From NCBI RefSeq assembly GCF_003641205.1, contig NZ_CP032762.1, forward strand, positions 2,480,001-2,544,000: a stretch of DNA of 64,000 nt, read 5' to 3'. Positions within the stretch are counted from its first letter, which is position 1; each line of letters begins with the position of its first letter. Made by a program: the position numbers and the translations under genes. The DNA comes from Rhodococcus sp. P1Y (GTDB taxonomy: Bacteria; Actinomycetota; Actinomycetes; Mycobacteriales; Mycobacteriaceae). Positions 18,609-21,499 of this stretch are shown here, piece after piece. A model generated the notes under the pieces. The model ran no database searches and was not told where the DNA came from. It was given only the letters and a program-made list of their open reading frames with translations.

Positions 18609-19787
18609 ATGTTGACGAAGCTCTCCGAAGCGACTTGGCCGACCTCGGGTGGCAAAGCGTCAGTGCTCGGTGTGTTGCTGCGCGAAGGCATGCCAGTGCC
18701 CGACGGGTTCGTCGTGTCAGACGGCGATCAGTCGGTGAGCTCTGTGGCCGCGCACTCCTTTCGTGACGTCGTTGCTCTCGAGCTCCAAGAATTGGGTAAT
18801 CCAATTGTGGCCGTGCGCTCCTCGGCGGCCGGCGAGGACAGTGCGGATGCTTCGGCAGCGGGTCAGTACGAGAGCATCATCGGCGTTCACAGCGTCGATG
18901 ACGTATGCCAGGCCATCGCGACATGTCGGAAATCGGCCCTCGCAGCACGAGTGGGTGACTACTGGAGACGAACCGGTGGCCCGTCGCGCCACGCGCTCGG
19001 CCCGTCGCCCCACACGCCTGGCATGGCGGTGCTCGTGCAACCGGTGATCGAGGCGGATGCGTCGGGAGTCATGTTCACGCCGCAGCGTGGGGGACCGACT
19101 CGGATCGAAGCATCCTGGGGCTTGGGTCTGGCCGTCGTGGGCGGAACGGTTACGCCGGACACCTACGAGGTCACCTCGAACGGAACTATCCGCTGTGTAG
19201 TGGGAAGCAAACAGACCCGGATCGACCTGGATCACGAGCGCGGCGGTGTCGCCACGAGCCTGGTCGCGCCTGACAAGCGCACCGCACGTGCCCTGGACGA
19301 CGCCACGATCACAGCCTTGGTCGACCTGGGAGGTCGTATTGCCACGATGCTCGACGGGCCCCAAGATATCGAGTGGTCCGTCGAAGACGGCGGTGTATGG
19401 ATTCTGCAGGCACGCCCGATCACAGCAGCGCTTCCCGCCAGCAGAGTTCACGGTTCCGCCGACCATGCGGAGGATTTGAACGGCACTCCAGGTTCGCACG
19501 GACAGGTCACGGCGGTAGCGCGGATTGTGCGCAGCCCCTCGGACTTCTCCTCCGTCCACCGAGGCGACATCGTGGTCTGCCCCTACACCGACCCGGCCTG
19601 GACGCCCCTGTTCACCATTGCGGCCGGGGTTGTCACCGAGACCGGCGGCGCACTCTCGCACGCGGCGATCGTCGCCCGTGAGTACGGCATCCCCGCCGTG
19701 CTCGGCGTCGACAGCGCCACTACTCGGATCGAAGACGGCGCACGGATCACGTTGAACGGCACAGCCGGAACGATCACCGTCCTTTGA
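18609..19787 (+). CDS. Compact PEP-synthase/rifampicin-phosphotransferase-like protein (ATP-grasp plus swivelling His domain)
   Basis: A 392-residue member of the PEP-utilising enzyme group. The ATP-binding part (about 1-280) has VRSSAAGEDSADASAAGQYE and IEASWGLGLAVVGG, and closes with DIEWSVEDGGVWILQARPIT. The mobile phosphohistidine domain (about 300-392) carries TETGGALSHAAIVAREYGIP with His351. PEP synthases (about 800 residues) have a further TIM barrel and rifampicin phosphotransferases (about 860) a large drug-binding domain between these two parts; here the two are joined by only about 20 residues. It could phosphorylate a small or protein substrate or need a partner. It is about 1 kb from arr but lacks the rifamycin-associated element. 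Confidence 0.75.
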   Translation: MLTKLSEATWPTSGGKASVLGVLLREGMPVPDGFVVSDGDQSVSSVAAHSFRDVVALELQELGNPIVAVRSSAAGEDSADASAAGQYESIIGVHSVDDVCQAIATCRKSALAARVGDYWRRTGGPSRHALGPSPHTPGMAVLVQPVIEADASGVMFTPQRGGPTRIEASWGLGLAVVGGTVTPDTYEVTSNGTIRCVVGSKQTRIDLDHERGGVATSLVAPDKRTARALDDATITALVDLGGRIATMLDGPQDIEWSVEDGGVWILQARPITAALPASRVHGSADHAEDLNGTPGSHGQVTAVARIVRSPSDFSSVHRGDIVVCPYTDPAWTPLFTIAAGVVTETGGALSHAAIVAREYGIPAVLGVDSATTRIEDGARITLNGTAGTITVL

Positions 19788-19850: not shown

Positions 19851-20453
19851 ATGGCTACGAGGTATCTCTACATCGCACGCCACGGCGACGCCGACGCGTT
19901 CGGCAACCTCACCGACATCGGACGTGAGCAGGCCCGTTCGCTCGGCAAGCGCTTGGCGCATCTGCCCATCGACGCCGTATGGCATTCGCCGCTTTCGCGG
20001 GCAGCCGACAGCGCCCGAGAGCTGAACATCTTCCTCAGCGGCAGCGCCCCTGTCGGCGACGCGGCCGAGCTGATCGATCACGTGCCCTACGTACCGTCAG
20101 TGGAGGAGACTCCGCCGTCGTGGGTGCCGTTCTTCGACGGCTACGACGCCAAGGAAGCAGCAGCAGGGCACGAGATCGCGAACAGTCTCACTGCGAGATT
20201 CGCTGTACCGCCGGATGGTGACGACAATGTTCACGAAGTTCTCATCACCCACGCATACCCGATCGCGTGGCTCATCCGTCACGCACTGGGCAGCCCGGCG
20301 GTGCGATGGCTCGGACTCGACAGCGCGAACGCGGCGCTGACCGTGATCGAGAACCGACCCGAGCTGCCGCCGAGCGTCGTCATGTTCAACGACATGAGCC
20401 ACCTCCGCCCAGATCTGCGATGGACGGGATTCCCCAAGGCGCTGCGCGCCTGA
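19851..20453 (+). CDS. Histidine phosphatase family protein
   Basis: A 200-residue phosphoglycerate-mutase-fold phosphatase. The phosphohistidine motif is ARHGDADAFG near residues 9-18, followed by LTDIGREQARSLGKRL and HSPLSRAADSA, and the second conserved histidine is in LITHAYPIAWL. The catalytic RHG is intact. It follows the PEP-synthase-like gene by 63 bases in the same direction, so it may be in the same operon and could remove the phosphate that enzyme installs. It is convergent with arr. Substrate unknown. Confidence 0.8.
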   Translation: MATRYLYIARHGDADAFGNLTDIGREQARSLGKRLAHLPIDAVWHSPLSRAADSARELNIFLSGSAPVGDAAELIDHVPYVPSVEETPPSWVPFFDGYDAKEAAAGHEIANSLTARFAVPPDGDDNVHEVLITHAYPIAWLIRHALGSPAVRWLGLDSANAALTVIENRPELPPSVVMFNDMSHLRPDLRWTGFPKALRA

Positions 20454-20492: not shown

Positions 20493-20930
20493 CTAGTCGT
20501 AGATGACGTCGGCTCCCGTTCGCCGCAGCTCTTCCAGGCCTGCCCGGAACTCGCGGAGATACTCGGGGGAGTGCCCGACCCAATCATGGATCTCCCCAGC
20601 GACTTTCACTGGGTGAGGGCTTCGAAACGACTGAGTCGGGTTGCCGGGAAACTTCTTGTCGGTGACATTTGGGTCGTCTTCGACGTCGCCGTCAGGTTCG
20701 ACGACGTACACGCGAGGACGTCCCGTCCCGGTTGCCATCTCGGCTGCAAGAACCGCGTTGTCCAACACTTTCGTCATGTAGACGTTGTTCGAGATGAGCT
20801 CGGAACGGTAGTTGGAGCGATACCCCGGGGTGAGGAAGTCCCCAACCCGCAAGTCGGCTTTGGTGCCGTGGAAATACGCACCCGACTCATGCACCTGGAA
20901 CTGCGGGGGTGTGTCTGCCATGTCTGCCAT
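20493..20930 (-). CDS. arr: Rifampicin ADP-ribosyltransferase Arr
   Basis: A 145-residue Arr protein. It has FHGTKADLRVGD, the region EDDPNVTDKKFPGNPTQSFR and GEIHDWVG, which are hallmark blocks of the family. His21, Tyr51 and Asp86 align with the catalytic His19, Tyr49 and Asp84 described for the mycobacterial enzyme. It transfers ADP-ribose from NAD to the C23 hydroxyl of rifamycins, inactivating the drug. The ATG at 20930 was chosen because GAAGGGG lies six bases upstream; the frame begins at 20945. A rifamycin-associated element lies about 50 bases upstream, so induction by rifamycins is expected. Confidence 0.95.
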   Translation of the reverse strand: MADMADTPPQFQVHESGAYFHGTKADLRVGDFLTPGYRSNYRSELISNNVYMTKVLDNAVLAAEMATGTGRPRVYVVEPDGDVEDDPNVTDKKFPGNPTQSFRSPHPVKVAGEIHDWVGHSPEYLREFRAGLEELRRTGADVIYD

Positions 20931-20981
20931 CGAAAACCCCTTCATGAAAGTGATGTGCCGAGCGATTGTGCACGCTTCAGG

Positions 20982-21000
20982 GGGCCTTGCCGCAAGACCC
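20982..21000 (-). promoter_or_regulatory. Rifamycin-associated element (RAE) upstream of arr
   Basis: On the minus strand the 19 bases read GGGTCTTGCGGCAAGGCCC. The RAE consensus as I recall it from the actinobacterial literature is GGGGCTTGCGGCAAGGCCC, a match of 18 of 19. The core CTTGC-G-GCAAG is a perfect palindrome. TTGCGG inside it could serve as a -35 with TGCACA 17 bases on as a weak -10. Its orientation and distance fit arr. Confidence 0.88.
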
Positions 21001-21070
21001 CATCACACAGTTACAGTGAAGTGGGATTGAAACGGCGCGTGTGCGGTCTGATTCGTCCGCATCCGGGGGT

Positions 21071-21082: not shown

Positions 21083-21499
21083 ATGGTGCGATCAGCATGG
21101 TGGGTATTGGCCGTTGCCGCGGTGGCCCTCACCGCGTGGAACGCGACGTCGTTGACCATGTTCGACATGTCGATGTCATGCTCGAAAATCGGCGAGGGCA
21201 GCTCCTACCAGTGCAGTGACCGAGCCATCGACGTACTGGGAGTGTGGCCACTTGTCGGCGTAGGTCTAACGCTCGCGTCGCCACCGGTGGTGGCGGCGAT
21301 CGCACTGCGCAAGTGGGTTTCCTGGTTGGCCGTCGCCGTTCTCGTGAGCTTGTTTGTCGCCGGTGTACTGCGTATCACCGCCGACTCGTACACGAGTCTC
21401 TTTATCTTCGCTCTTCCTATGGCCGTCCTCGGATCGATCATCGCGGCCTTTCAGCGAACTGTTCCACGACCCACAGTTGGTCCGGCCGCGCTAGCCTGA
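21083..21499 (+). CDS. Small integral membrane protein, function unknown
   Basis: A 138-residue protein with about four hydrophobic segments: residues 5-22, 50-72, 77-95 and 103-122. Two cysteines in the first external loop (CSKIGEGSSYQCSD) could form a disulphide. It ends with a short Pro-rich tail. It is divergent from arr across the RAE region and convergent with another small membrane protein. I do not recognise the family; a link to rifamycin response is only positional. Confidence 0.6.
   Translation: MVRSAWWVLAVAAVALTAWNATSLTMFDMSMSCSKIGEGSSYQCSDRAIDVLGVWPLVGVGLTLASPPVVAAIALRKWVSWLAVAVLVSLFVAGVLRITADSYTSLFIFALPMAVLGSIIAAFQRTVPRPTVGPAALA

Follow-up and report, generated by a model that had tools for sequence, protein, structure and literature searches.

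The rifamycin-associated element before a Rhodococcus arr gene as the candidate core of two back-to-back promoters

The stretch of DNA analyzed here, called the window, comprises 64,000 nucleotides of the genome of Rhodococcus sp. P1Y (contig NZ_CP032762.1, positions 2,480,001 to 2,544,000) and contains arr, a gene for a predicted NAD+-rifampin ADP-ribosyltransferase (Table 1). The arr product scored 172.3 bits against the NCBIfam model NF033144 (rifampin_ARR; cut-off 130) and 151.1 bits against Pfam Arr-ms (PF12120; cut-off 25), and it fell under the cut-off of 250 of both narrower "exception" models, Arr_Ms and Arr_Sa. The nearest solved structures are those of Arr, 9iaf and 2hw2. The full Arr signature that a preliminary description of this DNA had reported is present, with His21, Tyr51 and Asp86 numbered from the ATG at 20930; we take these to be the catalytic residues. 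The reading frame extends upstream to a second in-frame ATG at 20945, a possible alternative start. By family models and solved relatives the gene is a genuine arr, and ADP-ribosylation of rifampicin by its product is predicted. Two plus-strand genes are convergent with arr. The first (18609–19787) encodes a short protein of 392 amino acids with PPDK ATP-binding and PEP-utiliser domains. It has no counterpart of the large central portion found in Rph or PEP synthase, and its domains correspond to the outer two of a rifamycin phosphotransferase; the second (19851–20453) is a histidine-phosphatase gene.

Table 1. Features of the arr locus, in positions of the window; promoter elements are candidates
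Feature	Positions	Strand	Basis or remark
arr, NAD+-rifampin ADP-ribosyltransferase, 145 amino acids	20493–20930	−	Pfam Arr-ms, NCBIfam NF033144, PDB relatives, H21/Y51/D86
Likely ribosome-binding site of arr, AAGGGG	20937–20942		6 nt before the ATG
Candidate −10, sense (arr) promoter, CACAAT	20965–20970	−	CANNNT here in 119/133 sites; RNA start expected near 20958
RAE palindrome, GGGTCTTGCGGCAAGGCCC on the minus strand, 19 bp	20982–21000		Sole exact match in the genome
Candidate −35, antisense promoter, TTGCCG	20987–20992	+	19 nt from −10; read from sequence
Candidate −35, sense promoter, TTGCGG	20990–20995	−	19 nt from −10; read from sequence
Candidate −10, antisense (decoy) promoter, TACAGT	21012–21017	+	TANNNT here in 129/133 sites; RNA start expected near 21024
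ORF of 138 amino acids toward which the antisense RNA would run, no known family; candidate only	21083–21499	+	ORF list, family-model search

The preliminary description had placed a rifamycin-associated element (RAE) 52 bases upstream of the arr start. The element is indeed there, in an exact copy; the gap to the ATG at 20930, when counted, is 51 bases. The same description had put its agreement with the RAE consensus at 18 of 19 letters, a fair figure when judged against the commonest letters of the 133 sites described below instead of the published consensus: the window RAE differs from these at the fourth letter, and its 16th is G instead of A, both of which are common there. Within the window, GGGTCTTGCGGCAAGGCCC matched at a single place with up to three mismatches allowed, and 100 shuffles gave no match. 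The genome (5,868,661 bases) was searched with the pattern GGGNCTTGCNGCAAGNCCC, mismatches being allowed, in place of a matrix scan, and yielded one exact match (at arr), one with a single mismatch and one with two. The one-mismatch site lies 61 bases upstream of a HelR ORF, the partial sequence of which scored 723 bits against the HelR model (the cut-off of 750 applies to the whole protein), and the two-mismatch site, judged from ORFs, falls inside coding sequence. At up to three mismatches the pattern was found in 25 places, compared with 93 for the reversed control, so the weaker matches are meaningless and only the two best sites count. At least one RAE site with no more than one mismatch occurs in 32 of 37 genomes of the genus; one genome of the same genus (G033) carries four RAE-like sites at this level, not one or two, including the one-mismatch sites C19:165228 and C43:23449.

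The element shares its 19-bp palindrome and the kinds of gene that it precedes with the known actinobacterial RAE, which stands before helR/helD, rox, rgt, rph and arr. In M. smegmatis, arr (MSMEG_1221 and MSMEG_1224), rox and the helicase gene helD are listed in the accessible text among the genes most induced by rifampicin (PMC6529629). For helD, the available portions of a second report state that induction was abolished by deletion of half the RAE, that the RAE overlaps the −35 of a mapped sense promoter, and that a second sense promoter starts ∼20 bp upstream of the RAE (PMC10719064). The presence of an RAE before arr, and the rifamycin induction predicted from it, are consistent with this published record. 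An RAE-controlled arr is a known kind of arrangement, and the new part lies in its surroundings: the earlier account covered the palindrome alone and overlooked two flanking −10 boxes.

A comparison set was assembled from a scan of genome contigs, which gave at least 119 stretches with the exact palindrome. Palindromes among the matches listed, together with loci from searches of the organism's own genome and of its genus, made up 151 sites; blastp matched the genes at 136 of these to one of five reference proteins (HelR, 61; Rox, 34; Arr, 20; Rgt, 11; Rph, 10). Removal of one spurious assignment (L044) and of identical flanks left 133 distinct sites before resistance genes, a set that includes close relatives and is not phylogenetically independent. 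The HelR and Rph references score above their curated NCBIfam cut-offs, and those for Rox and Rgt are named by likeness (339 bits against the rifampin monooxygenase model and 508 bits against the Rgt model, respectively, each with a cut-off of 800).

On the strand facing away from the gene, 129 of the 133 sites have TANNNT at a distance of exactly 11 nt from the edge of the palindrome, compared with a mean of 0.20 at 59 other offsets. The box was present before every gene family (HelR, 58/60; Rox, 33/34; Arr, 18/19; Rgt, 11/11; Rph, 9/9), and its first, second and last letters were conserved at 98, 98 and 99%; these are the −10 letters that sigma70-type polymerases need most. Four sites lack it at the fixed place (L082, L107, L120 and L161), two of which, L107 (before arr) and L120 (before rox), are alphaproteobacterial palindromes from the contig scan. 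On the gene side, CANNNT occupied the position exactly 11 nt from the palindrome in 119 of 133 sites (mean elsewhere, 0.93) and TANNNT occupied it in one; the 14 exceptions mostly differ in the first letter, with GANNNT in eight. The distance between each box and a same-strand TTG within the palindrome is 19 nt, longer than the usual 17 between −35 and −10; the TTG of the candidate sense −35 is itself part of the RAE pattern by which the sites were collected. With −10 boxes at a fixed distance on both sides, the RAE looks like a −35 core common to two back-to-back promoters. A conserved box for a second, upstream sense promoter of the helD type was not found in the RAE site set, and a search within 300 nt for an upstream sense promoter facing the antisense one gave no sense TANNNT column of at least 8 hits, except one adjoining the antisense box.

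A pattern demanding both −10 boxes and CTTGNNNCAAG, with the outer arms left free, matched in 183 of 394 genomes of the class, with one reversed-control match among the matches listed. Of thirty loci taken from this search, 29 precede HelR, Rox, Rgt or Rph, and the other precedes an exporter. The 16 palindromes that carry no assigned gene (15 plus L044) divide evenly into eight with both boxes and eight that have neither box; no record with an actinobacterial name holds any of these last eight. As judged from these loci, the two candidate −10 boxes sort chance palindromes from those adjoining resistance genes. Carriage of the RAE by phages was considered and rejected: the palindrome occurs in three viral contigs, none of which has the antisense −10 in either orientation, and these were taken as chance. 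RAE modules also stand before MFS drug-exporter genes in L172 (1608–3052) and L035 (229–1797), the former above and the latter just below the DHA2/EmrB cut-off, which suggests RAE-controlled efflux of rifamycins. Many HelR, Rox, Rgt and Rph loci (e.g. L018, L061 and L063) have an additional conserved stretch in their leaders, roughly GGCCGAGGCCAGAACCTGCGGAAA, placed after the sense −10 in front of several unrelated genes; the window does not have it.

The palindrome arms were analyzed in 112 distinct strings from 150 listed matches of the box-demanding search. The outer arms proved to be kept though not demanded, with G in 106, 109 and 111 of the 112 strings and C in 106, 109 and 97, i.e. 95–99% at five of the six positions and 87% at the last. 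One could also suppose that the RAE works as a leader hairpin within a longer RNA: transcribed from an upstream start, the palindrome could fold, and many leaders contain the additional conserved block. We set this explanation aside as very improbable, since the free pair of the palindrome (its fourth and 16th letters) was complementary in 23 strings against 21 expected, with shuffles reaching 33, and its commonest combinations, G-A and G-G, do not pair. This lack of covariation indicates that the palindrome is read as DNA.

Should the antisense promoter fire, its RNA is expected to start ∼24 nt upstream of the palindrome. A hairpin (score of at least 7) starting within 5 nt of this point was found in 47 of 132 sites, nearly always at that very base. 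The control counts were 3/132 (window shifted by 60 nt), 2/131 (100 nt) and 4/128 (150 nt), with 0/133 and 2/133 for two windows on the sense side, and 3.3% of 399 shuffles gave such a hairpin. The stems vary in sequence from site to site. In a slightly narrower search, at least four T in the 8 nt after the hairpin were counted in 34 of 46 cases on the antisense strand, against 2 of 46 for the same hairpins on the sense strand and 9 of 86 sites without a hairpin; a stricter hairpin-plus-T rule was satisfied by 30/132 sites, with 1/127 and 0/132 in controls. A hairpin at the start of the RNA, usually followed by a T-run, looks like an antisense RNA that is terminated at birth. By gene, the hairpin is common at Rph (8/9) and Rox (14/33) sites and rarely seen at Arr sites (3/19); the RAE of the window has none, as is the case for 85 of the 132 sites at the cut-off used. 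Across the set, then, the sequences hold two −10 boxes at a fixed distance, an asymmetry of TANNNT on one side and CANNNT on the other and, in part of the sites, a hairpin with a T-run at the predicted start of the RNA.

The antisense −10 might also be the ordinary promoter of a divergent gene and have nothing to do with rifamycin control. In the window such a gene could be the 138-amino acid ORF, which begins 58 nt past the predicted antisense start; this ORF had no tblastn match at E 1e-5 in the RAE loci collected, the antisense box is constant before five unrelated gene families, and at many sites the RNA would stop immediately at the hairpin and T-run. We regard a divergent-gene promoter as improbable.

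Searches outside the Actinomycetota demanded the antisense box and the core, leaving the gene-side box and the arms free. Among 200 genomes of the Xanthomonadales (the order of a Stenotrophomonas genome), 58 matched the loose pattern, which the reversed control also matched in many; an RAE-like core, judged by eye, was present in 15 of the 58. Nine of these Xanthomonadales sites, unlike the Stenotrophomonas one in sequence, lie before Arr (eight) or Rox (one). At all eight Arr sites the first base of a hairpin coincides with the predicted antisense start, and at least five T follow within 8 nt in all eight, the hairpin score being at least 7 in seven and 6.5 in the other; the Rox site has no such hairpin and T-run. 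In this order, the arr loci L225, L227, L230, L231, L234–L237 and L084 have the RAE module and, where the antisense RNA would start, a GGGAGGCGC-type hairpin with a T-run. The RAE module with its hairpin at arr in this order suggests that the module travels with the gene across phyla. In the Chloroflexota (the phylum of a Chloroflexi record), 37 of 301 genomes matched, with some reversed-control matches as well, and the loci examined gave 11 sites before Rph, Rox or Rgt, of which 10 had the gene-side [CT]ANNNT that was not demanded. Arms are looser outside the Actinomycetota in L227 (CGG...CTC), L260 (GGT...CGG) and L271 (TGG...CTG), both boxes being kept. Several of the non-actinobacterial records are metagenome-assembled genomes, for which misbinning is possible; two Stenotrophomonas records are named strains. 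By sequence, the predicted RAE module is linked to rifamycin-resistance genes in three phyla. Matches to a looser pattern in 15 of 289 genomes of the Alphaproteobacteria (the class of Mesorhizobium intechi) were taken as chance; the 15 loci have neither RAE-like arms nor any of the five reference genes.

We propose, at about even odds (roughly 0.5), that arr is driven by a bidirectional RAE promoter module in which a decoy and a sense promoter compete and rifamycin tips the competition. The palindrome would supply the −35 of two back-to-back promoters: the sense promoter, which serves arr, has a poor −10 (CACAAT), and the antisense promoter, directed away from arr, has a canonical one (TACAGT). 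Because the same −35 region is claimed on opposite strands, the two could not both hold RNA polymerase, and by geometry one would be used at a time; because the antisense promoter has the better −10, we interpret it as a decoy by which expression of the resistance gene is held down. Without drug, polymerase would be drawn mainly to the decoy and arr expression would be low, the decoy RNA ending, in about a third of relatives, in a hairpin within its first ∼30 nt. We infer that the antisense promoter fires and competes and that rifamycin shifts the balance to the sense promoter, upon which Arr would be made and the drug inactivated. The switch may be carried by the polymerase itself or by a dimeric RAE-binding protein.

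Several points speak against such a switch. Simple kinetic reasoning on how rifamycin would tip the balance gives the wrong sign for overlapping promoters, in that a polymerase halted by the drug at the decoy would be expected to obstruct the sense promoter as well; the way out would be rapid departure of the halted polymerase or switching by a dimeric RAE-binding protein. Moreover, the conserved GGG/CCC outer arms are not needed by a −35 and would be explained by a dimeric protein, which they favor; the antisense box and the terminator-like hairpin favor a decoy role either way. Also against the switch are the 85 of 132 sites without the hairpin, the four without the antisense box, the second sense promoter reported for helD and a literature search that turned up no antisense RNA or start site. 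It is a tentative proposal, and in our judgment a doubtful one, that the RAE is itself the rifamycin sensor, made up of mutually exclusive promoters and a tiny self-terminating decoy RNA and requiring no dedicated regulator.

The strongest competing explanation is that the RAE is the operator of a dimeric, rifamycin-responsive transcription factor that controls the sense promoter, with the antisense promoter a by-product or helper; we consider this quite possible, if somewhat short of even odds. It is the view taken in reviews, as far as their accessible text goes, and it accounts for arms that extend beyond the −35 letters and are kept undemanded, as well as for a palindrome read as DNA. However, an operator leaves unexplained why the antisense −10 is at least as constant as the sense one (129 against 119 of 133) and why a terminator-like hairpin follows it, and it needs the same factor in Actinomycetota, Chloroflexota and Xanthomonadales.

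There is precedent for rifampicin sensing by promoter pairs. In B. subtilis, the available parts of a recent report describe convergent promoter pairs at helD and pps as rifampicin sensors (PMC12802891). As predicted for the RAE sites, a sense promoter and a dominant antisense promoter lie before rifampicin-response genes; there, however, the two are oriented toward each other, with 39 bp between their starts, whereas those predicted at the RAE stand back to back with a common −35 region and a palindrome and are not of the convergent type. Steric overlap of the two B. subtilis promoters abolished induction, according to the same text, which adds to the sign problem of the overlapping promoters predicted at the RAE. 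The mycobacterial rpoB-rpoC promoter pair is a second precedent (PMC6181997): in the portion available, one promoter represses the other and rifampicin preferentially inhibits the repressing one, as would be the case at the RAE; unlike the RAE pair, these promoters point in the same direction, the rise is ∼1.6-fold and transcription between the promoters is needed. The actinobacterial RAE literature, in the sections accessible, differs from the present module in that it mentions no antisense promoter, terminated antisense RNA or sites outside the Actinobacteria. A literature search for an antisense RNA or start site at the RAE, an antisense RAE promoter, a terminated RNA or sites in Chloroflexota or Xanthomonadales returned none in print, although the primary RAE papers may describe them.

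How the RAE senses rifamycins was, in the available text of a 2026 account, still to be elucidated (PMC12802891). Should the RAE prove to be the shared core of two opposed promoters, the sensing question becomes directly testable. For finding rifamycin-response genes, the double −10 rule is more specific than the palindrome alone, and it already leads to two putative efflux pumps and to two further bacterial groups. A regulator-free RAE sensor, if true, would explain how a portable module comes to be present in Actinomycetota, Chloroflexota and Xanthomonadales.
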